Assembly (NCBI GenBank): GCA_016868315.1
Contig: VGHE01000001.1
Span: 1-64,000 of the forward strand
Reading direction: 5' to 3'
Source: Betaproteobacteria bacterium
Lineage (GTDB): Bacteria; Bdellovibrionota_B; Oligoflexia; Silvanigrellales; Silvanigrellaceae
DNA length: 64,000 nt
The notes beneath the pieces were generated by a model. That model saw only the letters and a program-made list of their open reading frames with translations, was not told where the DNA came from and made no database searches. This document shows positions 14,661-63,332 of the stretch, piece by piece. A program made the position numbers and the translations under genes. How positions within the stretch are numbered: position 1 is the stretch's first letter; each line of letters opens with the position of its first letter.

Positions 14661-14665
14661 TCTGT
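14637..14665 (+). terminator. Hairpin terminator after the candidate RNA
   Basis: An 8-bp perfect stem (cccacttt / aaagtggg, 14638-14645 and 14649-14656) with a three-base loop is followed by ttt and a pyrimidine-rich tail. It would end transcripts of the plus-strand RNA candidate. A possible extra hairpin (gccg-aaag-cggc) lies just before it. Confidence 0.55.
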
Positions 14666-14713
14666 GCTCTTTTTCCTCTCACCTGGGGTTTCTTCTTTTT
14701 CTTTTTTTTCCAA

Positions 14714-39217: not shown

Positions 39218-39234
39218 TGTGGGTGTCCTCCGGC

Positions 39235-39927: not shown

Positions 39928-39930
39928 GTC

Positions 39931-41619: not shown

Positions 41620-41630
41620 GATGGAGTTCC

Positions 41631-43510: not shown

Positions 43511-43528
43511 GGATCCTCACTCTGACTT

Positions 43529-43864: not shown

Positions 43865-43878
43865 GGGTGTTCCCTTTC

Positions 43879-45114: not shown

Positions 45115-45749
45115 CGCTTCCATCCTTTCGAGGTAGCAAGGTCAGAGGGAACATTGTCGATCGTGCCGCGCTGGCTCAGCTGAAGCGCCTGAATGTAAGC
45201 GACGATCGCCCAGCGATCTTCAACGGGGATAGCGTAGGCGTAGGAGGGCATGTTTCCGCGAACACCATTCTTAATGGCATCATAAACCTGCCCGGCGGGC
45301 ATGTTGACGAGGCGCTCTTCATGAATGCTGGGTGGCTTGAGCATGCCTGCGTTGCGTTGAATCACGATGCCGTTGCCTTGGCCGGTTTTGCCATGACACA
45401 CCGCACAGTAGATGTTGTAGCGTTCTTGGCCACGTTCTACGAGCGGTAGCGAGATGCCGACTGGAATTTTGGTGACAAATGCTTCGCCGCTTTTACCGAG
45501 GTGAAGCGCGGAGTCTTCCTTCAGTTGTCCCTGAGCTACAGTTCCGGCAACAGGCAAGCGCATCGCACGACCGTCTTCAAAGAACTTGTTTTCCTTTTGA
45601 GGGCGATACTTGGTCTGAAAATCCATGTTGAGATTCGGGTGAATCGGTGGATTCTCTGAGGGCTGGCCTTGGCAACCCGACAGCGTACTCAGCGTCAAAG
45701 CAGCCGCACAGAGGCTCAAGCTTGAGATTAATTGTGTAGAGAGTTTCAT
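45111..45749 (-). CDS. actE: Alternative complex III monohaem cytochrome c lipoprotein ActE
   Basis: The 212-residue lipoprotein (Cys26 of LSTLSGC) has a cytochrome c domain with haem motif CAVCH in IYCAVCHGKTGQGNG and a Met ligand region (GNMPSYAYAIP). It is the haem exit of ACIII, passing electrons to the caa3 oxidase. The start is set at the Met at 45749 with GGAGCA upstream. Confidence 0.9.
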   Translation of the reverse strand: MKLSTQLISSLSLCAAALTLSTLSGCQGQPSENPPIHPNLNMDFQTKYRPQKENKFFEDGRAMRLPVAGTVAQGQLKEDSALHLGKSGEAFVTKIPVGISLPLVERGQERYNIYCAVCHGKTGQGNGIVIQRNAGMLKPPSIHEERLVNMPAGQVYDAIKNGVRGNMPSYAYAIPVEDRWAIVAYIQALQLSQRGTIDNVPSDLATSKGWKR

Positions 45750-45751
45750 TT

Positions 45752-46291
45752 TTATTGCTCCACCAATTCCACATGGGTTGCACCAAGTTCTGTCAGCATC
45801 TTGGACGTTGCGGTCGGGTCGAATTTTGGATCGCACGCTTCGATGGAGATGAAAAACTTGTCATCCGTGACCTTTTCAAAGCGCTGTGAGCGGAACAGCG
45901 AGTGATACCACATGGGCAATCGGTTGATGAAAAGCATTCCGAAGACAGCACCGAAAGCACCCAGCAGAACGCCGAGCTCGAACGTCACAGGCACAAAGGC
46001 CTGCCAGCTAAATAATGGTTTTCCGGAGATAACCAGCGGGTAGGCTTGGGTGTTGATCCACCACTGCAACAACATACCGCCGCTCGCACCCGAGAGACCC
46101 AGGACAAGCACAATCCAGGGCACCTTACTGGGCTTCAGACCCATAGCTTTTTCCAAGCCATGAACAGGAAAAGGTGTATGCGCGTCCCAATTCTTAAAGC
46201 CCTTGTCACGAACCTTCTCGCAGGCATGGTAAATGGCAGACGCTGTAGGAAACTCGGCAAGCACTCCATAGAGGTTTTGTTTCTGGCTCAT
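45752..46291 (-). CDS. actD: Alternative complex III subunit ActD (DUF3341)
   Basis: The 179-residue protein has a soluble N-terminal part, two transmembrane helices and a cytoplasmic tail (EACDPKFDPTATSKML) typical of DUF3341/ActD. It has no cofactor and stabilises the membrane part of ACIII. It overlaps the actC stop (TGATGA) and precedes actE by two bases. Confidence 0.9.
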   Translation of the reverse strand: MSQKQNLYGVLAEFPTASAIYHACEKVRDKGFKNWDAHTPFPVHGLEKAMGLKPSKVPWIVLVLGLSGASGGMLLQWWINTQAYPLVISGKPLFSWQAFVPVTFELGVLLGAFGAVFGMLFINRLPMWYHSLFRSQRFEKVTDDKFFISIEACDPKFDPTATSKMLTELGATHVELVEQ

Positions 46292-47694
46292 CAGTGTGCT
46301 CCTGCTTTGGTGTCATGGCCATGAGGATCTGCTTCGGGCATCACAGTTTTGACTTCCGCAATCGCAACAATTGGCAAGAAGCGAACAAAAAGCAGGAAAA
46401 GCGTGAAGAACAGACCGAACGAGCCAATGAACGTTGCAATGTCAACGAACGTCGGTTGGAAATAAGCCCACGACGAGGGCAAGAAAGTGCGGTGCAGCGA
46501 CGTTACGATAATCACGAAGCGCTCAAACCACATTCCGATGTTCACAAAAATAGAAATGATGAACAGAGCCCATAGGTTGGTGCGGATTTTACGCACCCAG
46601 AAGAGCTGCGGGATAATCACGTTACAGGTGATCATCGTCCAGTAAGCCCAAGCGTATGGTCCGGTTGCGCGGCTAATGAAGATGTAGCGCTCGTAGGGGT
46701 TACCACTATACCAGGCAATGAAGAATTCCATTGCATAGGCATAACCGACCAACGAGCCGGTGAGGAGAATGATTTTGGCCATGTTCTCGAAGTGGCGCAT
46801 GGTCACGAGATGTTCGAGCTTGAACACCCAGCGGCAGATGACCATCAGGTTAATGACCATCGCAAAGCCCGAGAAGATCGCACCAGCAACGAAGTAGGGC
46901 GGGAAGATGGTGGCATGCCAACCAGGTAGCTGAGAGGTTGCGAAGTCGAAACTCACGATGGTGTGCACCGAAAGAACGAGAGGAGTCGAGAGAGCTGCAA
47001 GAATGAGGTAGGCGCGTTCGTAGTTCAGCCAATGGCGGTGAGAGCCGCGCCAGCCAAGGGCAAACAGACCGTACACAAATTTACGCACACCCTTCGAACG
47101 ATCGCGGAAAGTTGCGAGGTCTGGAATGAGTCCGACAAACCAGAACAGCGTAGACACAGTGAAATATGTAGAGACTGCAAACACGTCCCAGAGCAGAGGG
47201 CTGCGGAAGTTAGGCCACATCACCATCTGGTTAGGAATTGGGAACAGCCAGTATGCAACCCACACACGGCCAACGTGGATGCCTGGGAAGATCAGCGCGC
47301 AGATCACGGCGAAGATGGTCATCGCTTCTGCGGCTCGGTTAATAGACGTACGCCACTTCTGGCGGAACAGGAACAAGATGGCCGAAATCAGCGTTCCAGC
47401 GTGGCCAATACCAACCCAAAAAACGAAGTTGGTAATGTCCCATGCCCAACCGACTCGGTTGTTCAAGCCCCAGACCCCAACGCCTTCCCAGAATAGGTAG
47501 GCAATTGCCGCGCCTAGGACACCGCAACCTGCCAGAGAAATGAGGAATAAAATCCACCACGCTTTGGGCGTAGCCATTTCCATGGGGCGAGCAACGATGT
47601 CTGTGACCGACGAGAACGTCTCGCGCCCCAGAACGAGTGGTGCGCGTTTGTCGACGTGTTCTTCAAGATTCGCAAGCGTAACTGATGTTTCCAT
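46291..47694 (-). CDS. actC: Alternative complex III quinol-binding subunit ActC (NrfD family)
   Basis: The 467-residue protein has about ten transmembrane helices and the NrfD/PsrC pattern ([29 protein letters not shown]). It binds menaquinol at the periplasmic side and passes electrons to the iron-sulfur centres of ActB. It lies 14 bases after actB and overlaps actD. Confidence 0.93.
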
Positions 47695-47708
47695 GTGCGC
47701 TCACCACT

Positions 47709-50700
47709 TCAGAGTTTGGTTGATGGTTCAAGTTCAGGATTTGTGTTGCGGACCTTCGCAAGGAAAGTTGTGCGTGGCTCGAGGGCGAGCTCAGAGAGCA
47801 CAACGTAGTTGCGAGGTGAAGCCTTGAGCTGCTTCACGCGGCTGTCCACATCGTCTGCCAAGTTTCCGAAAGTGATGGCGTCTGTGGGGCATACCTGCTG
47901 GCACGCCGTGACCACTGAGCCCTCGCGGAGAATTTCTTCGCCACGAACTTTCGCGTCGATGCGGGCTGCGTTGATACGCTGTACACAGTAGGAGCACTTC
48001 TCGATAACACCGCGGAAGCGAACCGTAACGCGAGGATTCTTCTGCATCGCGTAGAGCGGATTCGACTCATCGTTCTCTTTTGCGAAGTTAAAGTAGTTGA
48101 AGCGGCGCACTTTGTAAGGACAGTTGTTCGCGCAATAGCGGGTACCGATACACCGGTTGTAGGCAATGTCGTTGGTTCCTTCGATACCGTGAACCGTTGC
48201 TGCAACAGGGCAAACCTGCTCACAGGGCGCTGTTTCGCAATGCGCACATGCCATGGGTTGGAAGACCGCTTGAATGGAATCTGGATTATCTACCTGACCC
48301 GTGAAGTACCGGTCGATACGTATCCAGTGCATTTCACGCGCTTTCAGCACGCGTTTTTTACCCACAACAGAGATGTTGTTTTCCGCCTGACAAGCCACTG
48401 TACAGGCATTACAGCCCGTGCAGGAGTTCAAGTCGATGGTCATACCCCATTGGTTGCCCCGGGTTTCGTTCGGTTTCTTCCAGAGAAGAGTTTTGTGCTT
48501 TTTCGGGTCGCCGAGGTTGAATTTCTTGAAAGTATTTTCAAGCGTTGGATCGGCTTTGTAGGCTGCCAGCGTGAGTTCGCGGGTCACGCCGCGTGTTTCA
48601 ATTGCTTCGCGACCAACCATGGTGTCGTATTGGTAGTCGGACACACCGTGTTCCTGGGTTGTTGCCAGTTCGTACGTTCCCGCAACCTTCTTTACATCGG
48701 CACCAACAGCATAGACTTCATCACGACCCAAAAGCGTGTAGCCGTTGAAGCCGGCACCTGTGGAAACGCGGCCATTGAAGGTACGGCCATAGCCGAGAGG
48801 CACGACCACCGTGTTTTCTGCGACTCCAGGCACCACGAAGGCAGCGATCTTGAGCTTGCGTTCGCGATCTTGTTTGATTGTAATTTCTACGAAGTCGCCC
48901 GTTTTGATGCCCTTTTCTTTTGCTGTCTTGGGGCTCAGGAGAGCTGCGTTGTCCCATGTGAGTTTGGTGACAGAATCGGGCACTTCCTGCATCCATGCGT
49001 TGTTTGCATAACGGCCGTCGTACACACTGCGGTCGAGTGTCAATCGGACTTCAAACTGCGCTGATGTTGGAACGGGAGATTCACCCAAACCTGCAATCAA
49101 CTGGCTCAGTTTGTCGAATTCAGGTTTGCTGGTGAGAACCTGACCCGTCGTTCCAGTGATGATTCCATCATGCAGCCAGCGGCGCCACGCTGCATCGAAA
49201 TTTGCGGGTGTAGACTTCTTCCATTCCGCTTGCACGAGTTCGTAGCCGTTCTTGTTCACTCCCATCAGGCCTGCAAGGAACTCAACGTCACTGAGCGAGG
49301 GGAAGAGGGGTTCGATGATGGGCTGCACGAGTGCTGCTGTGCCGTCGGCGCTCACGAGATCGCCCCAGCTTTCGAGCATGTGGCTGCGTGGGAAATGCAT
49401 GGTGCATGCCAATGCAGTTTCATCAGCATGGTAGCCGAGGTGAATGCTTGTTTTGACCTTCTTGAGAGCTTCAGCGAACTCGAGGTCAGCAGATGACGAG
49501 TAGACAGGGTTGGCATCCACGATAACCAGGGTCTGGATTGCACCGCGGTTGATTTCGGTGGTGAGCTCAGCAAGCGTCGCAGCACTCGGAAGTGGACTTG
49601 AGCGCACAACGACACTCTGGCCAACGTTGCCCAGAGCGGAGTTGATTGCGAAAGCCACAGCGTGAACCCATGCACGTTGTCCATGGCCAACCATAACAAC
49701 ACTCTTGCCCTTGTTGAGCATGAGGTCAGTTGCAAGACCCTTGATCCATTTTTCGTTAGGGCTCTTCACTTGGTTAGCGCGTGCAACGATGTCTGCAGGT
49801 AGGCTCAGGCCCTTGGCTGCGAGTTCGGACGCGAGTGCGAGAAGAGATTCGCCAATTGCGGAGGTGCGCAGGCTCAAGCGGTGGTCTGCGACAACGCCCG
49901 TATTGGTGAATGCAGATTCAACCACATACAGGCGGGACATGTTTCTTGATTCATCTACGCTTCGGCGCTTGGTTGCGAATGTTTTCGAGTTGCGAACAAC
50001 ATCACCTTCGATGCCGAGCGGGTCAGCATCGAACATGGCCAGCACATCTGCTTCTTCGAGCTTGTGGATAAGCCCTGCGCTCTTTAAACCAAGAGACTCA
50101 AGCGCAGTTTTTTCGTTCCAGTGCATTGCTGGATCGTGAATCGCGACCATTGTTTTTGGATACGCAGCTTGGAAGTCGCGCACGAGTCCGAGAAGTGTAG
50201 GTGATGGAACGGCTTCCATCAGAATTGCCATTCCTTGCGAAGCGCCGGCACGTACTTCGGCAGCAGCTGCAGCAAGTTTTTCTTTGAGACTTTTTGCTGT
50301 GAGGCGTGCTCCATCGACGCTTTTGCCATTTTGCAACACGCGTTGGCTGCGGTCGGGGTCATACACATCCAGAACAGCTGCCTGAGCGAATGTGTTTGTG
50401 CCGCCGAGGCTCATAGGATGTGTTGGGTTGCCGTCGATTTTGGTTGGTCGACCTTCGTAGCTCGTAACCAATAGACCGAAAACGCTGCCACCGAAACGGC
50501 CAACAGACGCATAGAATTGCGGTTTGCCTTCGATCAGATCTTCAGGGCGCTTGTTGTATGGAAGAATTTTTTCGGCTGGTTTGCGGATGCAGCCTGTTGT
50601 GGTCGACAGACCAGCGAACGCTGCGGATGCGCCGATGATTCCTAAGAAGGAGCGGCGGTCGACGCCGGGTGTAACTTCGAATTCAGCCGCACCGGATGGA

Positions 50701-50804
50701 AATTCGTTTTTCATGCGTGCAAGGAGTTCAGGTGACTCAGCCATCTCCTCGAGGCTTCGCCAGTATTTCTTGCCGCTCTTTTCCTGATTATTTTCAGACT
50801 GCAT
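47709..50804 (-). CDS. actB: Alternative complex III iron-sulfur protein ActB (molybdopterin-like plus 4Fe-4S)
   Basis: The 1031-residue protein (ATG at 50804, CTGGGGA upstream) carries a Tat-type signal (VDRRSFLG, Arg50-Arg51, then Cys72). A molybdopterin-oxidoreductase-like B1 domain follows, which in ACIII lacks a cofactor. The C-terminal B2 domain has four cysteine clusters: CTGCNACTVAC, CAHCETAPCEQVC, CSYCVQR and CQQVCP. These bind iron-sulfur centres that move electrons to the haems of ActA. It is the largest subunit and follows actA by 30 bases. Confidence 0.95.
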   Translation of the reverse strand: MQSENNQEKSGKKYWRSLEEMAESPELLARMKNEFPSGAAEFEVTPGVDRRSFLGIIGASAAFAGLSTTTGCIRKPAEKILPYNKRPEDLIEGKPQFYASVGRFGGSVFGLLVTSYEGRPTKIDGNPTHPMSLGGTNTFAQAAVLDVYDPDRSQRVLQNGKSVDGARLTAKSLKEKLAAAAAEVRAGASQGMAILMEAVPSPTLLGLVRDFQAAYPKTMVAIHDPAMHWNEKTALESLGLKSAGLIHKLEEADVLAMFDADPLGIEGDVVRNSKTFATKRRSVDESRNMSRLYVVESAFTNTGVVADHRLSLRTSAIGESLLALASELAAKGLSLPADIVARANQVKSPNEKWIKGLATDLMLNKGKSVVMVGHGQRAWVHAVAFAINSALGNVGQSVVVRSSPLPSAATLAELTTEINRGAIQTLVIVDANPVYSSSADLEFAEALKKVKTSIHLGYHADETALACTMHFPRSHMLESWGDLVSADGTAALVQPIIEPLFPSLSDVEFLAGLMGVNKNGYELVQAEWKKSTPANFDAAWRRWLHDGIITGTTGQVLTSKPEFDKLSQLIAGLGESPVPTSAQFEVRLTLDRSVYDGRYANNAWMQEVPDSVTKLTWDNAALLSPKTAKEKGIKTGDFVEITIKQDRERKLKIAAFVVPGVAENTVVVPLGYGRTFNGRVSTGAGFNGYTLLGRDEVYAVGADVKKVAGTYELATTQEHGVSDYQYDTMVGREAIETRGVTRELTLAAYKADPTLENTFKKFNLGDPKKHKTLLWKKPNETRGNQWGMTIDLNSCTGCNACTVACQAENNISVVGKKRVLKAREMHWIRIDRYFTGQVDNPDSIQAVFQPMACAHCETAPCEQVCPVAATVHGIEGTNDIAYNRCIGTRYCANNCPYKVRRFNYFNFAKENDESNPLYAMQKNPRVTVRFRGVIEKCSYCVQRINAARIDAKVRGEEILREGSVVTACQQVCPTDAITFGNLADDVDSRVKQLKASPRNYVVLSELALEPRTTFLAKVRNTNPELEPSTKL

Positions 50805-50834
50805 TTGTGCATTCCCCAGGTTCAAGTCTAGTTT

Positions 50835-51482
50835 TCAGTAGTGGCAGCCGGAGCAGTGTTGCGGAGGATTCACGCCGCGATGACGATGCGGGTCTTTCTC
50901 CGGATCATAGCCTGCTTTGGCGGCGTCGAAGGCAAGGTTTGTGACCTGATTCTTGGGCACCAGGTTTGGCAGTGGATTGCGATGGCAATCGAGACACCAA
51001 CCCATGCTCAGAGGCTGCGCCTGACCAACCACTTTCATTTGGTCGATGCGTCCGTGACACGACACGCAGTTCACGCCCGCGGTCACGTGCGCAGAGTGAT
51101 TGAAGTGGGCATGCTCAGGAAGCATGTGCACCTTGACCCATTCAATTGGTTTTCCGGATTGGTAGGAGTCGCGCACAAGCTGAAGGCGAGGGCTCTTCGC
51201 TTGAACCATGCTGTGGCAGCCCATGCATGTTTCCGTGGGAGGAATAGACGCGAACGCTGCTCGCTCAACCGTGCTGTGGCAGTAGCGGCAGTCCATTCCC
51301 ATTTGGCCAGCATGGAGCTGATGGCTGAACGCAACAGGCTGCTTCGGTGAGTAGCCCACATCGGTCCATTTGGGTGAGAAGAAATACCAAATAACAAGAA
51401 CAACACTGACAAGGGCAATGGGGGCACCAATCGCAACCAATGTTGGGATTTGATTGGTCCACTTAGGAAAAATGGGTGTCAC
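50835..51482 (-). CDS. actA: Alternative complex III pentahaem cytochrome c ActA
   Basis: The 215-residue protein has one N-terminal transmembrane anchor and five CxxCH haem motifs (CRYCH, CMGCH, CVSCH, CLDCH, CSGCH). The start chosen is the GTG at 51482 because AAGGTG lies 6 bases upstream and ActA proteins start close to FPKWTN; an ATG at 51500 is the alternative. ActA leads the operon and gathers electrons from the iron-sulfur centres of ActB. A promoter is expected in the 200 bases upstream. Confidence 0.93.
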   Translation of the reverse strand: MTPIFPKWTNQIPTLVAIGAPIALVSVVLVIWYFFSPKWTDVGYSPKQPVAFSHQLHAGQMGMDCRYCHSTVERAAFASIPPTETCMGCHSMVQAKSPRLQLVRDSYQSGKPIEWVKVHMLPEHAHFNHSAHVTAGVNCVSCHGRIDQMKVVGQAQPLSMGWCLDCHRNPLPNLVPKNQVTNLAFDAAKAGYDPEKDPHRHRGVNPPQHCSGCHY

Positions 51483-51691
51483 TCTATCACCTTCACACAT
51501 GAGGGTTTGACACACGAAACTCGCGACTCCGGGAAGGAGAATCTCGACCCGTCGCGCGATTTCTCTATTTCATCCAATGTACGCGAGCAAGTCTCGCACC
51601 AAAACAATCTCAAGAGAAATTTTCAAAGGCGAGTTGATCTGAATCATAATGGAGGGTGAGCGAGATCTACGGTGTCAAAAAATCGCACGTG

Positions 51692-52321
51692 TCAGAAAAA
51701 GCGTTCGCCCGAGATCGCCTCAGCGCGTGAAAACACTTCGTCCACACCATTTGGAGTAGCGTCATAGAAGCCGCGGATTTTTCCCTTCGCATCGACCAGC
51801 ACGAGCTTCTGAGCATGAGCGATGTCCATGAGCCCACCCATCATGCTCGCTTCACCGACGGCCATCATGAAGCCACCTTCGATGATCTGGGTCAAAATTG
51901 CTTTTTCAGCGGTTAGAAAAATCCAGTGAGCTGGATCGCTCGGAATTGTTGCACCATGCGCTTTAAGTGTTTCTGGCGTGTCGTGTTCAGGGTCAACCGT
52001 GAAGCTGACAATATTCAGGGGCAGGCTTGAGACTTTTATGCGCTCCTGAAGGGTTTTTAAGTGTTGAAAGATCATCGGGCAGGCGGTTTTACAGCGCGTA
52101 AAAATGAAACTTACCACATATGCTTTCCCAGCAAGTTGTTTGGAACCAAAAGCTTCACCATTTTGGTTGATAACCGAGAATTCGGGAACCTCGGCAATGA
52201 CGGGTGGAGGTTCGGGAACTCGGCGGGTGAAGGGTGTCAGAATTGTGATGACCAGCATGCAGATGATGGCAGACCAAAAGTAAGGGCGACTTTTGAACTT
52301 CTCGACAGCCTGCTCAAACAT
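51692..52321 (-). CDS. SCO1/SenC-type copper chaperone, short form
   Basis: The 209-residue protein has one N-terminal transmembrane helix and a thioredoxin fold with the CuA copper site FTRCKTACPM and His in IAHAQKLVLVD. SCO proteins load copper on the oxidase subunit II or act as thiol reductants. It is last in an operon of ABC transporter, CtaB and a Cys-rich protein, separate from the SCO inside the act-cox run. The two copies may serve different steps. Confidence 0.88.
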   Translation of the reverse strand: MFEQAVEKFKSRPYFWSAIICMLVITILTPFTRRVPEPPPVIAEVPEFSVINQNGEAFGSKQLAGKAYVVSFIFTRCKTACPMIFQHLKTLQERIKVSSLPLNIVSFTVDPEHDTPETLKAHGATIPSDPAHWIFLTAEKAILTQIIEGGFMMAVGEASMMGGLMDIAHAQKLVLVDAKGKIRGFYDATPNGVDEVFSRAEAISGERFF

Positions 52322-53087
52322 GACGAGCCTTTCTGTTTCGGGTCATGAGGGTAGTGAAATAAACGCAAACCACTGCCTGCAGCATCAGAGGTGTGAGATG
52401 CGACCAGAGTTGAGATGCTGTGGGTGGATCGATTAAGGCGAAGCGAAAAAGAGAAGCAATGTGTGTCATGGGGTTGAGGATTGCTAAAAAAGCCATGATT
52501 CCCTCTGAGGGAAGTGGAAACATCGCTCCGGAGACGATCCAGAGCGGAAAGAGAATAAGCCCCATGATGGCGTGATACCCTTGCACGGAATTAATAAGTA
52601 GCGCTGCGCCCAAATTGAGGCCAGCCAAAGCAGTGCTTCCAAGGACTGCCGAGAGCGCCAGTATTCCCCAATTGAGCGCCGTGAAACTGAGCCCGGCTAA
52701 CGGGACGAACAACAGCAGAATGGCCAGTTGAGCTAACACTAAGGTGACAAGACCTGCGATTTTCCCAGCTGCAATACCCAAACGCGGAGCAGGCGAAGCA
52801 AGTATGGCTCGCAGGAACCCGCTTTGTGCATCTTCAATCAGGCTGATTGCGCCAAAGAGTGTGGTGAAAAGCACACACATGACCAGTGATCCTGAAAAGA
52901 AAAACTGAAGATAATTGCCGTTGGATTCGGGAAGTGAAACAACGCGGTTGAGACCAAAGCCTATCAGGAACCAGAACAGGAGCGGTTGAGAAACCAGCCC
53001 CAACCAGCGTGAACGCTCTTTTGCAAAACGCAACATGTCGCGCTGCCAGAGTGCACCTGCCACCTGAAGGATGTGCTGACGGTTCAT
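52314..53087 (-). CDS. ABC-2 type transporter permease
   Basis: The 257-residue membrane protein has six predicted helices and the ABC-2 pattern (RSRWLGLVSQPLLFWFLIGFGLN, FLRAILASPAPRLGIAAGK). It lies between sco and the ATPase gene and overlaps both, so it belongs to one transporter with the ATPase. NosFY-like transporters with SCO proteins and CtaB take part in maturation of oxidases. Its substrate may be haem, a copper ligand or a thiol carrier; the sequence does not decide. Confidence 0.85.
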   Translation of the reverse strand: MNRQHILQVAGALWQRDMLRFAKERSRWLGLVSQPLLFWFLIGFGLNRVVSLPESNGNYLQFFFSGSLVMCVLFTTLFGAISLIEDAQSGFLRAILASPAPRLGIAAGKIAGLVTLVLAQLAILLLFVPLAGLSFTALNWGILALSAVLGSTALAGLNLGAALLINSVQGYHAIMGLILFPLWIVSGAMFPLPSEGIMAFLAILNPMTHIASLFRFALIDPPTASQLWSHLTPLMLQAVVCVYFTTLMTRNRKARHV

Positions 53088-54025
53088 CGGTTTGCTCCTG
53101 ATTCAATCAGCGTTCCCGCTCCGACTGCTTCGTGTGTGGAAAAAAGTTGGCGGAGCACAACGTCGGCCAAATTGGTTTTGCGGATTGTGGTGGCTTCAAT
53201 TGCGTCGTGTACACCGCTGATGAGTTTGAGTTTTGAAACAACAGCTTCGGCCTCATCGACGTGAATGAGCAACTTGTTGTGCATGGGCTCGGTGACAGCA
53301 AGCGAAAGGGCCTGTTGCAAGAATTCTTTGACCTGCTGCGCCTGAAATGTGGTTATCTCGAGCGTTTCGGGTGGAAGTTTGGAGAGCAATTCTTCTCGTT
53401 TTACGTCGAGTTCCACACGCCCTTGCTCGAGAAAAAGAAAGCGTTCAAATAGGCCGAGCTCTGCCGCGTGGTGAGAGGCGCAGATGAGCGTTAGTGCTGG
53501 GTTGAGATTTTTTGTTTGGGCTAAAAGAGCCCAGAATTCGCGTTGCGCAACAACATCGAGCCCAGTGGTGGGTTCGTCGAGAAAAAGTATTTCTGGCTCA
53601 GAGAGCAGCGCTCGCGCAAGATCAGCACGCCGTTGTTGGCCTCCCGAAAGCGATCCGACTGTTTTCTGAAGAAGACTTTCAAGGTCAAGCAGCTGAGCCA
53701 ATTGCATCGTTCTGTGCTCGATTTGCGCCCTCTTGAGACCCCAAACTTTGCCGAAAATGAGCAGGTTCTCAAGCACTGTGAGCTTTTTGTCGAGGCAGGG
53801 GGTCTGAAATACGAGAGCAACTTTTTGGGGTTCAACTCGGCACGCGCGCTTGCCCGATGAGGCCTCGAAGACTCCCGAGAGACAATGCAGAAGAGTAGAT
53901 TTGCCCGATCCGTTACGCCCCACGAGCGCAATTTTTTCGCCTGCAGCGATGTCCAATTTCGGAACCACAAGCGCGTTGTTGTCAGGATTATAGGCGAAAG
54001 AAAAATCAGAGAGTGAAACAATCAT
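53084..54025 (-). CDS. ABC transporter ATPase (DrrA/NosF-like)
   Basis: The 313-residue ATPase has Walker A GRNGSGKST, signature LSGGQQRRADLARAL and Walker B EILFLDEPTTGLD. It is of the DrrA/CcmA type with a C-terminal part of unknown role. It overlaps the permease by four bases and the ctaB gene by four bases. It powers the two-component exporter tied to oxidase assembly. Confidence 0.9.
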   Translation of the reverse strand: MIVSLSDFSFAYNPDNNALVVPKLDIAAGEKIALVGRNGSGKSTLLHCLSGVFEASSGKRACRVEPQKVALVFQTPCLDKKLTVLENLLIFGKVWGLKRAQIEHRTMQLAQLLDLESLLQKTVGSLSGGQQRRADLARALLSEPEILFLDEPTTGLDVVAQREFWALLAQTKNLNPALTLICASHHAAELGLFERFLFLEQGRVELDVKREELLSKLPPETLEITTFQAQQVKEFLQQALSLAVTEPMHNKLLIHVDEAEAVVSKLKLISGVHDAIEATTIRKTNLADVVLRQLFSTHEAVGAGTLIESGANR

Positions 54026-54915
54026 TTTAGCAGCACATCAATGGCCAGGCTGATGGTCAGAACTGGCAGGTAGACAAGTGAGACAAAGAAAAGCTGACGC
54101 GCCCAGGTTACGTTACGTTGCGGATTGAAGCCGCGCAGACTCATCCACACCATCCAAAGACCCAATCCGAACGCGGTCACTCCGTAAACGTAGCCCGCAA
54201 ACTCCGCCTGACACAAAAGCAAGCTCACGGGCACGAGTGCAATTGAGTAAGAAAGCGCTTGAATTGTTGCTGGACGCAAACCACGTTCTCCAGGCCAGGT
54301 TTTAATGCCGGCGTTTTTGTAGTCGGTTTCATGGTTCACCGAAATCGCGATGAAGTGAGGAATTTGCCAAATAAGCAGAATTGCGAAGAGAACTAAGCCA
54401 GGAAATGAAATTTCATTGGTGGCTGCTGTCCATCCCAACAGGGGCGGCATGGCTCCAGGAATGGCTCCAATAAGCAATGCATGCGGAGTCACACGTTTGA
54501 GCGGGGTGTAAACGAGGACGTACGAGAGAAGCGCAAAAAGGCTGAGCGCGGCTGTAAGGGTGTTCACCCACTGAGCCAACACCAGAACCGATGCGACACC
54601 CAAAACCAATCCAAAAACCAATGCATTGAGTGAGGCAATGCGGCCTGCTGCGAGCGGACGCATTGCCGTCCGTTTCATGAGTTTATCGGTTTCGCGTTCC
54701 CAGTACATGTTGAGCGTGTTGGCTGAACCCACAGAGAGCGCAGTGCCCAATAATGTGGCGAATACGGTCGGCCAAGGCAAAGACTCGGGTGCAAGTGCCA
54801 TGCCACCGAGGGTCATCAACAAACAGAAGAGATTGATTCGCGGTTTGGTGAGTTCGTAGTAATCCCGCCAGAAACGCAATGGCGGCTCGAATGTGACTTC
54901 AGATGCTGCGCTCAT
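54022..54915 (-). CDS. ctaB: Protohaem IX farnesyltransferase (haem O synthase)
   Basis: The 297-residue integral enzyme has the CtaB motifs NTLNMYWERETDKLMKRT, RPLAAGRI and the second block NHETDYKNAGI. It makes haem O, the precursor of haem A for the caa3 oxidase. It overlaps the ABC ATPase gene by four bases. CtaA (haem A synthase) is not in the window. Confidence 0.93.
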   Translation of the reverse strand: MSAASEVTFEPPLRFWRDYYELTKPRINLFCLLMTLGGMALAPESLPWPTVFATLLGTALSVGSANTLNMYWERETDKLMKRTAMRPLAAGRIASLNALVFGLVLGVASVLVLAQWVNTLTAALSLFALLSYVLVYTPLKRVTPHALLIGAIPGAMPPLLGWTAATNEISFPGLVLFAILLIWQIPHFIAISVNHETDYKNAGIKTWPGERGLRPATIQALSYSIALVPVSLLLCQAEFAGYVYGVTAFGLGLWMVWMSLRGFNPQRNVTWARQLFFVSLVYLPVLTISLAIDVLLK

Positions 54916-55400
54916 TTTTTGTACTTCTCAATTGATGCGGGCAGATATCCTAGCCCGCGGCAATGCAGGTCTAATGTCTTGTAAGAATTTCCGCAAACCT
55001 TATTTAGACTCCGGCTCAGCATCCGTGCTTCACACTCCTTGAAGCCAAAGTGTGCGTCAGCAGGGCGATCTCTGAGAGCCTCGCACTCACTGACCCGGCT
55101 CTGCCCTGCAAGACAGCTGTCCATGATTCGGGGCACGGCTCCCTCGCAAAGTGCTTTCATCCCGTTGCATTTGGGCACCCACTGAATGACCTCGTCGATG
55201 CACTTCTCCGCCGAGGCCTGCGTGCCAAGAGTTTTGAAATAAGTGTACATCTCCACCAAATGAACGTCGGTTTGGCGGTAGGCAACCGCTGTAATGCCGG
55301 ACATGATGACCGAAAACACTGCCAATCCGCCCAGCACCCACCATGCTTTGTGCTTGCGGGGTTGGGACGTTGGAGCTGCTTCGGTTGGGTTGGACGTCAT
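54912..55400 (-). CDS. Cys-rich single-TM membrane protein of unknown function
   Basis: The 162-residue protein (ATG at 55400) has one helix near residues 23-42 and a 115-residue periplasmic domain with eight cysteines. Neither a CxxCH nor a CxxC motif is present. Paired cysteines suggest four disulfides. It is first in the ctaB-ABC-SCO operon and overlaps ctaB by four bases, so a role in oxidase maturation is likely. I know of no family. Confidence 0.6.
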   Translation of the reverse strand: MTSNPTEAAPTSQPRKHKAWWVLGGLAVFSVIMSGITAVAYRQTDVHLVEMYTYFKTLGTQASAEKCIDEVIQWVPKCNGMKALCEGAVPRIMDSCLAGQSRVSECEALRDRPADAHFGFKECEARMLSRSLNKVCGNSYKTLDLHCRGLGYLPASIEKYKK

Positions 55401-55439
55401 GGTGCGACCCCACAATAAAGGTTTCGCCGCACAATAGAC

Positions 55440-58400
55440 TCAGTGGGCCGCGACCTCAAGCCGGGAGTCGGCCAAATAGCCTGCGAAAACCCCCTTCTTG
55501 TCGGCCATCAACTCTCCGGGTGAGGCACATTCAACGATTCGACCGCTTTGCATCACCACAACCCTGTCGCAGTGCATGACCGTATTGAGCCGATGGGCAA
55601 TGGTCAGAATTGTACAGCCCGCGAATTCATTTTGGATTGTGGTTTGAATGAGGGCGTCGGTCTGGGTGTCCACGTTCGCGGTGGCTTCGTCCAGAATCAA
55701 AATTTTCGCTCTCCTGAGTAGGGCGCGCGCCAGGCAGACCTGCTGCCTTTGTCCAACGCTCAGATTGCATCCGCCTTCCTGAACGGGTGTTTGCAGACCC
55801 TGTGGAAGACTACCAATGATGTTCCATAAGTGAGATCTTCTGAGCGCATGCAACACGTCGGCATCGGTATATTGGTCGAAGGGATCGACGTTCTGGCGGA
55901 ATGTTCCGGAGAACAAGATTGGGTCTTGGGGAATAATGGCAATGCGGCTGCGGAGGGTTTCGAGCGGCAGCGTTGAAATATCGACGTCATCTATAAGCAC
56001 ACTGCCGCTCGGTGGCTCAACAATTCTAAAAAGAGTTTGTACCAGCGTGCTTTTTCCGGCTCCTGTGCGTCCCACAATTCCAATACGTTCGCCGCCGCGC
56101 ACCTGCAAACTGACTCTATCTAGGACGGGAGGTAGCTCGGGACGGTAGCGCAAAGTCAGAAGTCGGAATTCGATGCGTCCGGTTGAGGGCCAGGTTTCTT
56201 GAGGAGTTATTCCATTCCAGCGCTCGCTGGTTGTGTCGGAATAATGTTTGACGCGCTCAATGGCATTCATGCTGCTTTCCAATTCGCTGACCATGCGAAC
56301 GGCCCAGTTCAGTGCTCCTGTCACAAGAAGTGCATAGGTCAGCGATACACCTGCAAAGGCTGTCGTAATTTGTCCGTGCAAAAGCATTGATGAAGCAGCA
56401 GCCGATCCCACGACAAGTGCACCAATGAATTCAAGGCGTGTACCCAGCCATCGGTTGATGGAGATCATTGTGTAAAAAGCACGCTGGTTACCCTCGAAGC
56501 GTCTGACACTCTCGCGCAGAAAAACAGTTTCACGCTGAAAGGCTCGAATCACACTGACACCGGAAAGTGATTCAGAGAAATGTGCGTAAACTGGAGAGCG
56601 CGAAATTGACTCGAGCCTTTTCACTTCTCTAGATGTGAGACGGAAAAGATGTTGAATTTTTAAATAGACGAAACCGAGGGGAACAAGTGCAAGCAAAGCG
56701 ACGGGAGTGGCTATCGTGATGACCACCAAAGTCGCACCAATCGTAAAGAGGCACGCGAGTGCTTCCATTAGAGTATTGGGGATGTGTTGATCGATGGCTT
56801 CGGTATCTTTGCCGAATCGATTGAGAATGCGTCCAGTTGGAGTTCTTTCGAAGAAACTCATGGGTGCTTGAAGCACGCCTTCGAGGAGCCGCTCATGCAG
56901 TGTACCCGCAGCGCGCACACCACCACGCGCAGTCACGAGGGTGCGTAGAAAGGTCATGAGAGCGGCAGCTGTTCCGAGAAAAGCGAGAACTAAAAGGAAA
57001 AATCTTACGCTCTCGGCCTTGTGTGTTGTCCACCAGGCAAGCCAAGAGTCGCTTCCTGCGTTGAAAACTTCCCTCAACACAAAAAGGCTCGCGAGCAGTA
57101 AGAGGGCACGACCGGGAGCGAGTTCGCGCAGGTAATCTGAGTAGAGCGCGCGCTCTACAGCACCCACTTGTCTTTCTTCGTCGACCACCAGTCGTCCGGC
57201 TGTTGGGTTGTGCATGCGTGCCGGAGATTGAGCCGGATGAGCTGTAACAGGCACGACCGTAGGTGTACGAAACTCAAAAAGTTGGCCTGGGGTTAGGCTT
57301 TCAGCAGAGTTGTGCAACGGATCTGCGGTTTCTAGTTCAGCCGCACGCACGTTGGATGTCGACGCTTCCGAAGCGGATTCAAGATGCGCTTGCGCTTTGC
57401 GTAGTTCAGCTATTTCCTCGGGTGTGAGCTCGCGCACAATTCCATCTTGAACCCACAAAACCCGATTCGCCCATGCTGTGTGTTCGCTGTTGTGAGTCAC
57501 AAGGATTCTGGTTTTCTTGGCGAGAAGCCCCCGCAAGCAGGTTGTGAAGATTTGTTTTCCAACCTTGCTGTCCACCGCACTCAGGGGACTATCGAGCAGA
57601 TAGATGTCGGCCTCTGCAAATACCGCACGTGCGAGTGCTATGCGTTGTTTCTGGCCACCTGAGAGATTTACACCGCGCTCACCGATTTCAGTTTCATCGC
57701 CCGAGACGAGTTGTGAGAGGTCGTCTTCGAGGCAACACGCTGCAATTGCATTCCTATAAACAAGACTCTTTTCCTCTTCTCCCAATTGAATATTCTCACG
57801 CACAGTGCCGTTGAGAATCCAAGGGAGCTGCGGAACATAGGCGAATTGACCTGCACTGCGGATGAGGTGATTTGAGTTGCTGAGCTCGTTCATAATGCTG
57901 TGAAGCAGAGTCGATTTGCCACCGCCTACGGGACCGAGCACAACCACGAGCTCGCCTGGTTGTATTTGCAGTTCGGGAATATGTATGCCAGGCTTCGAGG
58001 CACCCCAGGTCACAGCACCAGCCGTGAGGCGAATTTCACCGGGCTTGAGTTCGGAGGCAACGGCGCGTTCGGGAAATGTGCTGCGTCCAAGAAAGTCTTC
58101 GACTCTCTTCACGGCAATGTTAGCATCAATGTAGCCTGAAAAGGTCATTGGCATTTGCGACATGATAGGCCGCAGGATGCCAAAAAAAGCGAGCGCGCTG
58201 AAAACATCTTCGACGTTCAGAGAGCCATTCAATATGAGATGGGCGGAGAATGTTGCAATGCCGACAAAAATCGGAGTGCTGAGAAAAAGAATGTTGACCA
58301 GCGCTGATTCGCGCGCCAGGCCATTCAGTTCTCCAAGTTCCTGCGAGCGAAAGCCACGTATGCGCGATACAAAACTTTTTTCCCATGCATAAAACTTTAT

Positions 58401-59207
58401 GACTCGAATTCCTGCGAGAATTTCATTCATCAGACTGACGCGTTGATCGCTGAATTCCATCAGACGGCGTCGGCCTCTCATCATTTTTTTTGCACGCCGC
58501 GAAGAAAACCAAAGCAGCAGGATCATCACGCCCAAGCCTGCGAGAGTTGAGGTTCCAAGAATATAAAAGAGCGCAACGAGGATGACGATTGTTTGTAGTG
58601 GAAGCACCCAAGCGGAGTGGAGCATGCTTGCGACGTTGTAAACGCGAGCAGCATCGTTGGCCATGAGGTTGACTATTTCGCCTGTACTCGAGTGTGCTCG
58701 CGCAGCAGGGTCGAGCTGTAGCGACTTTTTATAGATAGAAACCACAAGGCCTGCGCGGATACGCATGCCAAGCTTGAGTGAGGCATGGTAAACGTGGTGG
58801 ATGCTAAGATTTGCAAGCAAAGCGCTCGCTGTAAGGGCAGCGGCGAGAAGCCAGCCAGAGGCACTGATGGAATCGGGAGATTTCAATGTTTTGAGAATCT
58901 CACGAATTATAATCGGGTTTAGCGTGACAAAAAACAAGTTTAAAAATGCCAAGCAGCTGATGAAGTAGAAAGTCTTTTTGTGCAGTGACCACATTGTACG
59001 CAGCACTGGGCGTGACTTACGCTGTTGATATTTTTGCAGCGTCGTGAAAAATCTCTCGCCGCACTCCGCAGAGTCTTCGCTGGAGTTGAGTTCGAATAAA
59101 TGCTGATCGGAAACATGTTCACGTTTCCCAACTGAGATGAGTGGGCTCACCCAGTGGAAAAGAACACGTTTATACCAGGGGCTGTGTTCTTCTTTGGTGA
59201 AGTTCAT
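55440..59207 (-). CDS. Full-length MRP/ABCC-type ABC transporter (TMD1-NBD1-TMD2-NBD2)
   Basis: The 1255-residue single polypeptide contains two membrane domains and two ATPase domains. NBD1 has Walker A GPVGGGKS (425-432), LSGGQ (515-519) and Walker B LLDS with Ser540 at the catalytic Glu position, as in MRP and CFTR NBD1. NBD2 has GRTGAGKS (1046-1053), LSVGQ (1149-1153), ILDEATANVD (Glu1174) and IAHRLNTV, very close to eukaryotic MRP/ABCC sequences. TMD2 has PMSFFERTPTGRILNRFGKD, again ABCC-like. Such full-length ABCC proteins export conjugated lipids or glutathione adducts in eukaryotes. The gene overlaps the glycosyltransferase gene (ATGA at 59204-59207). Confidence 0.92.
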   Translation of the reverse strand: MNFTKEEHSPWYKRVLFHWVSPLISVGKREHVSDQHLFELNSSEDSAECGERFFTTLQKYQQRKSRPVLRTMWSLHKKTFYFISCLAFLNLFFVTLNPIIIREILKTLKSPDSISASGWLLAAALTASALLANLSIHHVYHASLKLGMRIRAGLVVSIYKKSLQLDPAARAHSSTGEIVNLMANDAARVYNVASMLHSAWVLPLQTIVILVALFYILGTSTLAGLGVMILLLWFSSRRAKKMMRGRRRLMEFSDQRVSLMNEILAGIRVIKFYAWEKSFVSRIRGFRSQELGELNGLARESALVNILFLSTPIFVGIATFSAHLILNGSLNVEDVFSALAFFGILRPIMSQMPMTFSGYIDANIAVKRVEDFLGRSTFPERAVASELKPGEIRLTAGAVTWGASKPGIHIPELQIQPGELVVVLGPVGGGKSTLLHSIMNELSNSNHLIRSAGQFAYVPQLPWILNGTVRENIQLGEEEKSLVYRNAIAACCLEDDLSQLVSGDETEIGERGVNLSGGQKQRIALARAVFAEADIYLLDSPLSAVDSKVGKQIFTTCLRGLLAKKTRILVTHNSEHTAWANRVLWVQDGIVRELTPEEIAELRKAQAHLESASEASTSNVRAAELETADPLHNSAESLTPGQLFEFRTPTVVPVTAHPAQSPARMHNPTAGRLVVDEERQVGAVERALYSDYLRELAPGRALLLLASLFVLREVFNAGSDSWLAWWTTHKAESVRFFLLVLAFLGTAAALMTFLRTLVTARGGVRAAGTLHERLLEGVLQAPMSFFERTPTGRILNRFGKDTEAIDQHIPNTLMEALACLFTIGATLVVITIATPVALLALVPLGFVYLKIQHLFRLTSREVKRLESISRSPVYAHFSESLSGVSVIRAFQRETVFLRESVRRFEGNQRAFYTMISINRWLGTRLEFIGALVVGSAAASSMLLHGQITTAFAGVSLTYALLVTGALNWAVRMVSELESSMNAIERVKHYSDTTSERWNGITPQETWPSTGRIEFRLLTLRYRPELPPVLDRVSLQVRGGERIGIVGRTGAGKSTLVQTLFRIVEPPSGSVLIDDVDISTLPLETLRSRIAIIPQDPILFSGTFRQNVDPFDQYTDADVLHALRRSHLWNIIGSLPQGLQTPVQEGGCNLSVGQRQQVCLARALLRRAKILILDEATANVDTQTDALIQTTIQNEFAGCTILTIAHRLNTVMHCDRVVVMQSGRIVECASPGELMADKKGVFAGYLADSRLEVAAH

Positions 59208-60436
59208 GTTGTTGAATGACTTTCTGAAAAGGGCTCAAGAGTACGTGCCCAGGTAACAAGCCCGCTCCATCCCTCGGGGCCAAAACGCCGGCCATGCTCA
59301 AGCGCGTTGCGCCGCATCATTGAAAAAGCATCGGGTTGGTTGAAAAGAACCAGCGCTTTTTCAAGAGCGGCGGCAAGCTCCTGAGAATTGTTCGACTCAT
59401 AAATCAGAGCGCAGCTGCGGGGAAGGACTTCCGCCAGAGCTCCGACATTGCTGCTCACAAGGGGAGTCCCCTGTTGCAGAAACTCAACTGCAACCCGACA
59501 GATAACCTCGCTGCCCAAGCTTGGGATGAGTCCAAAACTCGACTGTCGCATCCATACGGCGATGTCGCGCAGCCGTTCGTCGAGCACCAGCAAACGAATG
59601 CGCTTTTCCGGCGCTTCAAGAAGCCAGCGGCTATCCGTGATTTTCTTTGCAGTCACATTGAAAGTGTTTTGAGCAAGTTCAATGAGCCGAGATGCTGAAA
59701 TATTTTGCGACTCGCCAATGAACACTATTTGGATCCATTGGTCGTTTCTCAGGTAGCTTTGAAAGTTGGCAAGTGACAAGGCCTGAATTGTTTCTGAGTG
59801 ACCTTTAACCGGATCGTAGCGTGCCACAATAGTGAAGGTCGGATGCGAGAAATCGAGCGAAAATTCGCGGGAAACAGCAATCTGGCGCGGCGCGGATTCG
59901 AGTGCAACTGCGGGTTCAGTTACCTTTGCTGTGCAATAGAGATGCACCCGTCGCTGCTTTTCAGGAACATCAAAAGCTGTGCGCTGCCTGACAATCTCTG
60001 CCGCAAAAGCAACACCGGAAACACCGCGAGTATAAACCCATTTATTGAGTAAAGAAGGAGCAACCGGAGAGGCCTGACCACGCACACGTATGATGCGTGT
60101 TTTGCTCCATAAACGCTTGTGAATAAGTCTGTGCACAGCGCAGAGCGTGTGTTCGCGACCTTCGAAGACCCAAACGACAGATGGTTTGTGGCTGCGGACA
60201 AGCTCACCGAGTGCGTGCCAGGCCGCAAAAAAACGTGCAAGCGTGAAGGGGAACAAAGGGATGGGGTTGGTTGGCAGAGCTGACTGATCCGCTTTGCGCA
60301 GTGCAATGCTGCCTGCTGGCGCGCAGTAAACAACACGCGTCGTTTGCCTCGTGGAAACGAACTTGGCTAACTGGAGGCTGTAATCCGTGACTGCCGAGAA
60401 CCACGGATTGGAATTGAGAACAATGTGAAATTCCAT
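59204..60436 (-). CDS. Glycosyltransferase family 4-like protein
   Basis: The 410-residue protein has a two-Rossmann GT-B layout. The N-terminal half has LNSNPWFSAVTDYSLQLAKF. The C-terminal half has the nucleotide-sugar site PSLGSEVICRVAVEFLQQGTPLVSSNVGALAEVL (Glu pair of GT4). It would transfer a sugar to a lipid or polyketide acceptor. The gene overlaps the methyltransferase and transporter genes by one and four bases, so it is part of one operon with them. The sugar and acceptor are unknown. Confidence 0.85.
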   Translation of the reverse strand: MEFHIVLNSNPWFSAVTDYSLQLAKFVSTRQTTRVVYCAPAGSIALRKADQSALPTNPIPLFPFTLARFFAAWHALGELVRSHKPSVVWVFEGREHTLCAVHRLIHKRLWSKTRIIRVRGQASPVAPSLLNKWVYTRGVSGVAFAAEIVRQRTAFDVPEKQRRVHLYCTAKVTEPAVALESAPRQIAVSREFSLDFSHPTFTIVARYDPVKGHSETIQALSLANFQSYLRNDQWIQIVFIGESQNISASRLIELAQNTFNVTAKKITDSRWLLEAPEKRIRLLVLDERLRDIAVWMRQSSFGLIPSLGSEVICRVAVEFLQQGTPLVSSNVGALAEVLPRSCALIYESNNSQELAAALEKALVLFNQPDAFSMMRRNALEHGRRFGPEGWSGLVTWARTLEPFSESHSTT

Positions 60437-61461
60437 CAGGCGTTGCCGACCTTCTTGAAGACAAGAACTATGTTGGTCGAGATATTGCCACGTTCCTCTT
60501 CGTCGACAAGTGTTTGTATGGAAATTTGGGGATGTGATTGTACGTTTAGCCAGCCAAGGTCGTAGCTTTTTGCTTTGTAAGCGACCAGTTCAAGTCCGCA
60601 CTGAGAGGCCCATTTCAAGGTGTCGCGCAGACTGAGGGCGTGATCGGACGGGTGCAGAAAGGCATCAGCCAAGCGGGCACGAGAGAGACCAATGTAGCGA
60701 AAGCGTTTTGATTTCGCGCCCGAACCGAGCATCGGTAAACACAGGCGCCACAAAAAGAGTTTGAACGCAACCCATTTCAAATGCAGGCGTGTGGCCAAGG
60801 GTGCCGAGGTACTTTCGCTGTGCTCGGAGGTCAGAGATTGCCAAAAGTTGTGGAAGCGTCTCTGCAAACCGCGCTCGAGTTGTCTGCCCTTGGCAGAGTA
60901 AATCATCAGCCGCAGGGTGCCATTTGATTTCAGTGCCTTGGACATCGCTTCGAGAAGGCTACGTGGCTCGGGCTGATGATGAAGCACCCCAAAGCATTGG
61001 ATGTGGTCGAAAACGCCCTCTTGCTTGAGCACACTTTCCGCATCGCCATGAATGAGCATCACGGGCTTTAACCTGTGCCACCTTATTTTTTTCTCGGCTC
61101 GCAATAGTGAGCGGTGACTGAGGTCGATTGCGACGATGGGATTGTGCGGGTGCAGTGTCCTGAAGAGCAAAGGTTCATCGGTTCCACAGCCTACCAATGC
61201 AATGCGTTTGTTCACCGGGAATGCGTGCCGGGCATCACGCAACTGTAGGTCGTCGATGTTGCCTCGGAATGGGCTGGTTTCCGAATTGGCAAGAATGTGA
61301 GCATAGCCAGCATGTGCTTCGATTGAACCCTTTGGATCAGGTCGAAGGAAAAAAGGTCTGTTTGGATAGGGAAACAGTTCGTAGAAGAACTGCATCCGAT
61401 CCAGAAAAAAGGCTGCAGAGTGAGTGCTTTTATCGCTCAATGAATTTTCGTCAGAACGCAT
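60436..61461 (-). CDS. Class I SAM-dependent methyltransferase
   Basis: The 341-residue enzyme has SAM motif I as ALVGCGTDEPLLFRTL, acidic strand 2 VAIDLSHRSL and post-I HIQCFGVLHHQPEP, followed by ALKSNGTLRLMIY. A long C-terminal helical part (residues 200-300) may form the substrate pocket. Its 5' end overlaps the ketosynthase gene by 25 bases, so translation is coupled. O- or C-methylation of an acyl or sugar product of its neighbours is the simplest idea. Confidence 0.82.
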   Translation of the reverse strand: MRSDENSLSDKSTHSAAFFLDRMQFFYELFPYPNRPFFLRPDPKGSIEAHAGYAHILANSETSPFRGNIDDLQLRDARHAFPVNKRIALVGCGTDEPLLFRTLHPHNPIVAIDLSHRSLLRAEKKIRWHRLKPVMLIHGDAESVLKQEGVFDHIQCFGVLHHQPEPRSLLEAMSKALKSNGTLRLMIYSAKGRQLERGLQRRFHNFWQSLTSEHSESTSAPLATRLHLKWVAFKLFLWRLCLPMLGSGAKSKRFRYIGLSRARLADAFLHPSDHALSLRDTLKWASQCGLELVAYKAKSYDLGWLNVQSHPQISIQTLVDEEERGNISTNIVLVFKKVGNA

Positions 61462-63071
61462 GATGAGATCCCGCCAATCCCCATGCTCAGTTTGCCGCAG
61501 ATGAGGCCGTTTGGCGCTTCAACTGTCAGCGGCTTGTCTGTTGCAAGGGTACGACCCACATCGCGAATGCTTGGGTGGACGCGAGCGGACTCGATCCCCG
61601 TGCCAATCAATGTGAACTTCGAGCCTTGTTTGCGTGTTGTAAAAAGCTGAGCCGTGAGTTCCCATCCGCCGCAGGTCGACATGCCGTGACCAAAGATTCC
61701 TTTGCGTGCCGTGATGATTGTTGAAGAGGGCAGGTTGTCAATCAGCTTGAACTCAGACCAGTCACCCGGCGTGCCTGTGGCATGCATATCCCAGGTGTGT
61801 ACATGAGCCGGTTCGATATCTGCCTGTTCGAATGCATCGCGAATGCAGAGTTTTGGTCCTTCAAGCGAAGGGGTGATGATGTGCTCAGCGTCGGAACTCA
61901 GACCCACTCCAAGGATTTCAATACCAAGTGATTTCTGTCCGAGTTTCTCCATAGCGTCGTCGGCCGCGAGAATCCAGGTGCAGGCTCCTCCAGCCACATG
62001 TGTGCCGCGCAGGTTGCACAGGGGAATGCCCACCTCGCATCCTGCAGCCAGAACCTTAGCTGCATTGAAGCCGGCGACCATTTCGGGTGGTGGATTCAGG
62101 TCGGTTGAACCGATGATTGCAGCATCATATCGGCCGCTGCGGATGCCATCGAAGGCTTGGCGGAGAAGCAAACCAAAGGTCGCACATGCGCCGATGGCAG
62201 CATAGGAAACGCCATGAATGCCATGCAGCATGGAGACCTGAGCGGCAGGTGCGTTTGGCAAGTTCCACAGCAGGTTGGCGTTCACCGCTTCCCAGGGTGG
62301 AGTTGGGTTCTTCCATTTGTCTGCCAGTGCTTTCTTGGCTTTACTCTTCGCACGAATAACGTTGAGTTTGTCGTTGGCAACATCGGCACCGATGGTGATC
62401 GATTCCATTTCATTGAACTCACGCAAATATTCTTTCAGGCCATCCGATTTCTCGGTCCAATAGCCATTCCAAACATCCCATGCCGCTGCGCGTTCGGGAG
62501 AATCGATTTCGAATGTGGAAGGTGACGCTGGCACGTTGTCGAAGTTCTTTTTGCCCGAGATGTGTTCGGCAAGTGCAGTATTGCGCTCAGGATGAGCCCA
62601 GAATTTGTTCCATGCGCGCTCGGCTGCTTTGTATTCATCGTGTGCTTTGAAGCTCGACTCTACGTCGCCAAAGCCGCTGCCGTAGCAAACAAAAACACGA
62701 GGGTCGATTTTCTTGAGAGCTTGTTCGAGGCCCGGATTGCTTTCGAGGGCGTCAATCGAAGTGCCAATCGCCATGCGAACATGCGTATAGCCCTTATCCG
62801 AGAGTTGCGAAAATTTGTTGGGGGCATGACGTTCGGCAATCCAGCCGCGGTAGGCTTCAAAATCGAATTTGGGTTTCCCGACCAAAAACGCACCATTGAA
62901 TTCGCTCATTGGGCTGAGTGCTGGTGCGCCCTCTTGGACTAACGCTAGGAATTCACGCAGGTTGGCTGCTCCAGGAGACACCACGCCAACTCCATACAGC
63001 GAAATCTTTCGGGATTTTTCAGCTGTCTGTGACTTTCCTGCTGAAGAGCCAATTTGCGCAGTAGAGACCAT
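61437..63071 (-). CDS. Beta-ketoacyl synthase (FabF/KS-like) with a large insertion
   Basis: The 544-residue protein has a KS triad: Cys near 296 (IGACATFG), His near 430 (MHATGTPGDW) and the second His/Lys block KGIFGHGMSTCGGW. KS enzymes of FabF type are about 410 residues; here about 130 extra residues (140-270), rich in Lys, Glu and Trp, are inserted between the first helices and the active Cys. No acyl carrier protein, ketoreductase or acyltransferase is next to it. It leads an operon with a methyltransferase, glycosyltransferase and ABCC transporter. The ATG at 63071 (GGAGGG site) is chosen over a GTG one codon upstream. Confidence 0.85.
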   Translation of the reverse strand: MVSTAQIGSSAGKSQTAEKSRKISLYGVGVVSPGAANLREFLALVQEGAPALSPMSEFNGAFLVGKPKFDFEAYRGWIAERHAPNKFSQLSDKGYTHVRMAIGTSIDALESNPGLEQALKKIDPRVFVCYGSGFGDVESSFKAHDEYKAAERAWNKFWAHPERNTALAEHISGKKNFDNVPASPSTFEIDSPERAAAWDVWNGYWTEKSDGLKEYLREFNEMESITIGADVANDKLNVIRAKSKAKKALADKWKNPTPPWEAVNANLLWNLPNAPAAQVSMLHGIHGVSYAAIGACATFGLLLRQAFDGIRSGRYDAAIIGSTDLNPPPEMVAGFNAAKVLAAGCEVGIPLCNLRGTHVAGGACTWILAADDAMEKLGQKSLGIEILGVGLSSDAEHIITPSLEGPKLCIRDAFEQADIEPAHVHTWDMHATGTPGDWSEFKLIDNLPSSTIITARKGIFGHGMSTCGGWELTAQLFTTRKQGSKFTLIGTGIESARVHPSIRDVGRTLATDKPLTVEAPNGLICGKLSMGIGGISSCVLTKIH

Positions 63072-63256: not shown

Positions 63257-63332
63257 GTGGCTGTAGTCAAGCGGTTAAGACAATGGATTGTGATTCCATC
63301 ATGCGCGGGTTCAAATCCCGTCAGCCACCCCA
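63257..63332 (+). tRNA. tRNA-His (anticodon GTG)
   Basis: The 76-base sequence folds with an acceptor stem GTGGCTG/CAGCCAC, anticodon loop TTGTGAT (anticodon GTG) and T loop TTCAAAT. Discriminator C and encoded CCA are present, with a G at 63256 that can serve as the -1 G typical of tRNA-His. It lies divergent to the ketosynthase gene. Confidence 0.95.

Follow-up and report, generated by a model that had tools for sequence, protein, structure and literature searches.

A ketosynthase-methyltransferase-glycosyltransferase-ABCC gene run at the head of a respiratory cluster in one genus of Silvanigrellaceae

Among described systems, those closest in concept to the locus studied here are the heterocyst glycolipid (HglE/HglT/DevBCA) and mycobacterial phenolic glycolipid clusters, which rely on multidomain PKSs with their own carrier domains and on dedicated exporters. 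Two kinds of transporter also bear on it: CydDC, which exports a thiol or heme-related compound for cytochrome bd, and the eukaryotic MRPs, which carry glutathione conjugates. The locus itself comprises a ketosynthase (KS), a SAM methyltransferase (MT), a GT4-type glycosyltransferase (GT) and an ABCC exporter, for which the original prediction had proposed a single pathway that makes and exports a methylated, glycosylated acyl product. A literature search returned nothing that links these genes to any cluster already described; the genome paper on Spirobacillus mentions carotenoids, and its main text names no polyketide, glycosyltransferase or gene cluster (PMC12321486). Our analysis tells a real, genus-specific operon apart from the pathway claimed for it, and the locus should therefore not be listed among biosynthetic clusters.

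Extent of the run

The window, by which we mean the whole 64,000-nucleotide stretch that was analysed, lies on contig 1 of a 3.24 Mb genome (27 contigs, 94.8% complete) whose nearest relatives are the Silvanigrellaceae (Bdellovibrionota). The coordinates given originally for four overlapping genes on one strand proved exact, Table 1, with overlaps of 25 bases between KS and MT, 1 between MT and GT, and 4 between GT and ABCC, and domain searches agree with all four enzyme classes as named, the catalytic motifs being intact. Position 55440, which had been taken as the end of the block, is not its end: after a gap of 24 nt the run goes on into orf167 and from there, through successive overlaps of 4, 4, 4 and 8 bases, into ctaB, the ABC ATPase, the ABC-2 permease and SCO1, so that neighbours among the nine genes of the run all overlap or are separated by no more than 24 nt. 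Since the genes of alternative complex III (ACIII), and then those of a caa3 oxidase, trail this run down to 38798, the four genes form the front end of a respiratory cluster. Their spacing suggests that the four are co-transcribed. A scan for promoters and terminators found sites no commoner than in shuffled sequences, and the operon boundary can therefore not be read from it; no repeats or tandem arrays were found near the genes, and searches of plasmid records with KS and ABCC gave no match.

Table 1 Features of the window, listed along the run from KS to SCO1 and then elsewhere
Feature	Position	Strand	Basis or remark
KS ketosynthase, 544 aa	61437..63071	-	ORF list, domain search, alignment, structure model
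SAM methyltransferase (MT), class I, 341 aa	60436..61461	-	ORF list, domain search, alignment
GT4-type glycosyltransferase (GT), 410 aa	59204..60436	-	ORF list, domain search, alignment, structure
ABCC (MRP-type) full-length exporter, 1255 aa	55440..59207	-	domain search, motifs, similarity scores
orf167, membrane-anchored, 8 cysteines	54912..55415	-	domain search, locus comparison
CtaB, heme o synthase	54022..54915	-	TIGR01473, 285 bits, cut-off 210
ABC transporter ATPase, ABC-2 type exporter	53084..54025	-	
ABC-2 type permease	52314..53087	-	
SCO1/SenC copper chaperone	51692..52321	-	closes the tightly packed run
caa3 oxidase, SCO1-like proteins, NrfD-type and other ACIII genes, with ABC-2 exporter and ctaB beside them	38798-52321	-	
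FabH-like ketoacyl synthase III	37643-38677	+	putative, by sequence reading; adjoins oxidase genes
1314-aa protein with subtilase domain	30752-34696		PF00082
6S RNA	14506-14694	+	Rfam RF00013, 52 bits
tRNA-His (GTG)	63257-63332	+	just upstream of KS start, divergent

Gene order within and beyond the genus

To the question of a conserved neighbourhood, the genus itself gives a clear answer, as the order KS-MT-GT-ABCC was found in all three sampled species. In the two species other than the source (L031 and L032) it is kept at identities of 80-83% for KS, 60-68% for MT, 68-75% for GT and 70-77% for ABCC, and the arrangement is thus not a matter of chance; retention of the translational overlaps in three species implies that expression is probably coordinated. 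The four-gene order was found only in the three g1 genomes, and in the remaining four genera of Silvanigrellaceae the genes lie apart or in pairs. In seven g5 genomes MT and GT are adjacent, usually overlapping, with ugpQ and a sugar ABC importer next to them, a site at which G013 has GT alone; in the g5 genomes the pair shares a contig with ctaB, at a distance of 30-50 kb, and KS is found at a third site. MT and GT are also paired in G003. The exporter is placed directly upstream of orf167-ctaB in three genomes (G003, G007 and G012), and in five others (G006, G008, G009, G010 and G011) the order reads HAD-orf167-ctaB without ABCC in between. These five genomes, which are 96-98% complete, contain KS, MT and GT, and a search for ABCC found none in them at E<=1e-100 and none at the ctaB locus.

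Scattering of the four genes among relatives, which the original prediction had itself counted as evidence against a pathway, is thus what we observe outside the genus, though not within it, and signs of an earlier linkage persist: in G004 KS adjoins MT (L040), the MT-GT pair of G003 lies about 6 kb from ABCC-orf167-ctaB (L088), and in G005 GT sits directly upstream of orf167-ctaB (L100). Long branches and unresolved deep forks in the gene trees leave the genera unordered, and the trees therefore do not settle whether an ancestral set was eroded or the linkage was built stepwise.

With a probability of about 0.6, we read the locus as a genus-level, co-transcribed patchwork of three separable units (MT-GT, ABCC and KS) heading the ctaB/alternative complex III/caa3 oxidase cluster. 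The separability is seen directly in the gene orders; any function shared by the units would be a further step. The pairwise linkage traces in G004, G003 and G005 suggest something beyond chance assembly, and, together with the overlaps kept in three species and the co-occurrence of KS, MT and GT in all 11 of the Silvanigrellaceae genomes that have KS, they count against the patchwork. The same observations, along with the recurrence of each adjacent pair or near-pair in another genus, favour a dedicated pathway, in which KS would make an acyl chain, MT methylate it, GT glycosylate it and ABCC export the resulting glycolipid, the ancestral set having been broken up elsewhere. We regard this as doubtful, however, because the exporter does not follow the biosynthetic genes in the five near-complete genomes above, because KS stands alone in other phyla, and because G003 (91% complete) has MT, GT and ABCC, but no KS was found in it. 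No dedicated carrier was detected either: a PF00550 search of the source genome returned one PP-binding protein, on contig 7 rather than on the contig of the window. The proposed pathway would require a carrier protein as well as a dedicated exporter. With a single carrier detected, on contig 7, and an exporter that does not follow KS, MT and GT, one exported product is conceivable but not supported, and neither is a dedicated exported-glycolipid pathway acting as a unit; what stands of the original claim is the conserved operon.

Possible roles of the separable units

As the sole functional pair found family-wide, MT and GT are the likeliest functional core of the run. MT (PF08241/PF13847) carries a glycine-rich SAM motif, VGCGTDEP, conserved in 10 sequences, as in class I SAM methyltransferases, and a conserved N-terminal FPYPNRP motif; GT (PF00534) has the GT-B fold and an EX7E motif with invariant E310 and E318, in line with the GT4 family. 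The two would glycosylate and methylate one acceptor, probably an envelope glycan or lipid. The structure of GT was discarded as a guide to this acceptor, its structural neighbours (HepE, BshA, PimB' and PglA) being mixed. One could also speculate that the pair targets protein, with MT as a protein methyltransferase and GT as a protein or peptide glycosyltransferase, given that MT has four weak matches in the PDB, of which two, 8hkr (33 bits) and 5dnk (22 bits), are protein lysine methyltransferases. The best of the four, however, is an unassigned methyltransferase (3mgg, 36 bits), the matches span mainly the common SAM-binding core, and GT4 enzymes act mostly on sugars, lipids and small molecules, which together with the mixed neighbours of GT makes a protein target very improbable.

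The KS unit is best described as a widely distributed, stand-alone condensing enzyme, which may carry out decarboxylative condensation on an ordinary acyl carrier protein as part of general acyl metabolism. KS is present in 12 of 58 Bdellovibrionota genomes, and relatives at 40-44% identity occur as stand-alone genes in Myxococcaceae, Acidobacteriota and Deferrisomatales; within one phylum, whose name we infer to be Myxococcota, matches were found in 68 of 195 genomes, nearly all of a single family, Myxococcaceae. In that family the insertion-bearing KS is near-universal and stand-alone (loci L134-L143, L036, L037, L039 and L042), and no characterised function was found for it. The relatives in other phyla have no partner genes in common, and their neighbours (a sigma factor and helicase, a CobW-like protein, an Elp3-like radical SAM protein) were rejected as a guide to function, as they share no theme. 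Worth keeping as a by-product of the analysis is this uncharacterised family of ketosynthases, which share a conserved helical insertion and occur across Myxococcaceae.

The third unit, ABCC, would be an MRP-like exporter of broad specificity, present in some genomes and absent from others just upstream of orf167-ctaB, with organic anions or lipids as its predicted cargo, not specific to the MT-GT product. The adjoining orf167 has no Pfam match and, in those Silvanigrellaceae loci that were inspected, immediately precedes ctaB (it was not seen for G004); it could be an uncharacterised oxidase or copper assembly factor. A different role for the exporter is conceivable, in which ABCC and the Cys-rich orf167 serve cytochrome oxidase biogenesis, for example through thiol- or heme-related export, and have nothing to do with KS, MT and GT. 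The synteny of ABCC, orf167 and ctaB in three genera, the neighbouring ctaB, SCO1, ACIII and caa3 genes and the established transport of glutathione conjugates by eukaryotic MRPs are consistent with this idea. The five genomes that keep orf167-ctaB-ActA-ActB without ABCC indicate, however, that ABCC is not required there, and similarity to generic ABC exporters does not reveal a substrate, and we thus consider such a role unlikely. Equally improbable in our judgement is a combination of these ideas, in which an ancestral KS-MT-GT-ABCC-orf167-ctaB module would have produced a methylated glycoconjugate and exported it, in a process coupled to the biogenesis of respiratory complexes; its MRP-type exporter would have come from a eukaryote, and other genera would have kept only fragments.

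Comparison with known proteins and clusters

At the level of the single protein, KS (PF00109/PF02801) is closest to FabF/KAS II. Without its insertion, the AlphaFold model superposes on FabF with a Z of about 44 over 388 residues (Foldseek, VIA-align), which identifies a KAS II fold, and the Cys-His-His triad and Lys (C296, H430, H462 and K457) are invariant among 14 aligned sequences. The insertion noted originally is real: it covers approximately residues 133-265, comprises some 130 residues that FabF lacks, lies before the catalytic Cys, and is conserved and, in the model, all helical. KS further differs from FabF in a HATxTPGD loop that is one residue shorter and in a GVGG loop without Phe, at the place where FabF has its gate Phe. 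Its score against the FabF model TIGR03150 is 94 bits, short of the equivalog cut-off of 493.75, and a separate FabF-like gene is present elsewhere in the source genome.

The exporter resembles the ABCC/MRP family (MRP1, YCF1, ABC transporter C family member 2) in having TMD-NBD-TMD-NBD in one chain (two PF00664 and two PF00005 stretches), a degenerate NBD1, whose catalytic Glu is replaced (IYLLDS), and LSVGQ in NBD2, as in a full transporter of this family. It differs in being bacterial, in lacking TMD0 and in staying below the equivalog cut-off of TIGR00957 (1006.5 against 1470 bits), although this is its best-scoring family. Its orthologues in G003, G007 and G012 score 986-1272 bits, animal MRP1 875 bits and ABC transporter C family member 2 806 bits, whereas other ABCC proteins of Bdellovibrionota reach at most 702 bits. 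As MRP1 thus outscores the other ABCC proteins of Bdellovibrionota, these similarity scores, which are not a tree, suggest a eukaryotic affinity and a possible transfer from eukaryote to bacterium; this closeness is a second by-product worth keeping. A search of 117 Myxococcota genomes at 1e-120, run without a positive control, found no ABCC. The source genome has a second ABCC paralogue, of 33% identity, on contig 9 (G000:C9:12990-16610, L061).

At the level of the locus, the downstream genes match the ctaB-SCO1-ACIII-caa3 oxidase cluster, the content and order of which are largely kept across Silvanigrellaceae, whereas KS, MT and GT head it in this genus only (in G005, GT does so alone). With the heterocyst glycolipid and phenolic glycolipid clusters the locus shares, as leads only, the concept of a ketosynthase and a glycosyltransferase, in part with a methyltransferase, joined to ABC export; it differs from them in having a lone KS, one carrier genome-wide and an exporter that is often absent.
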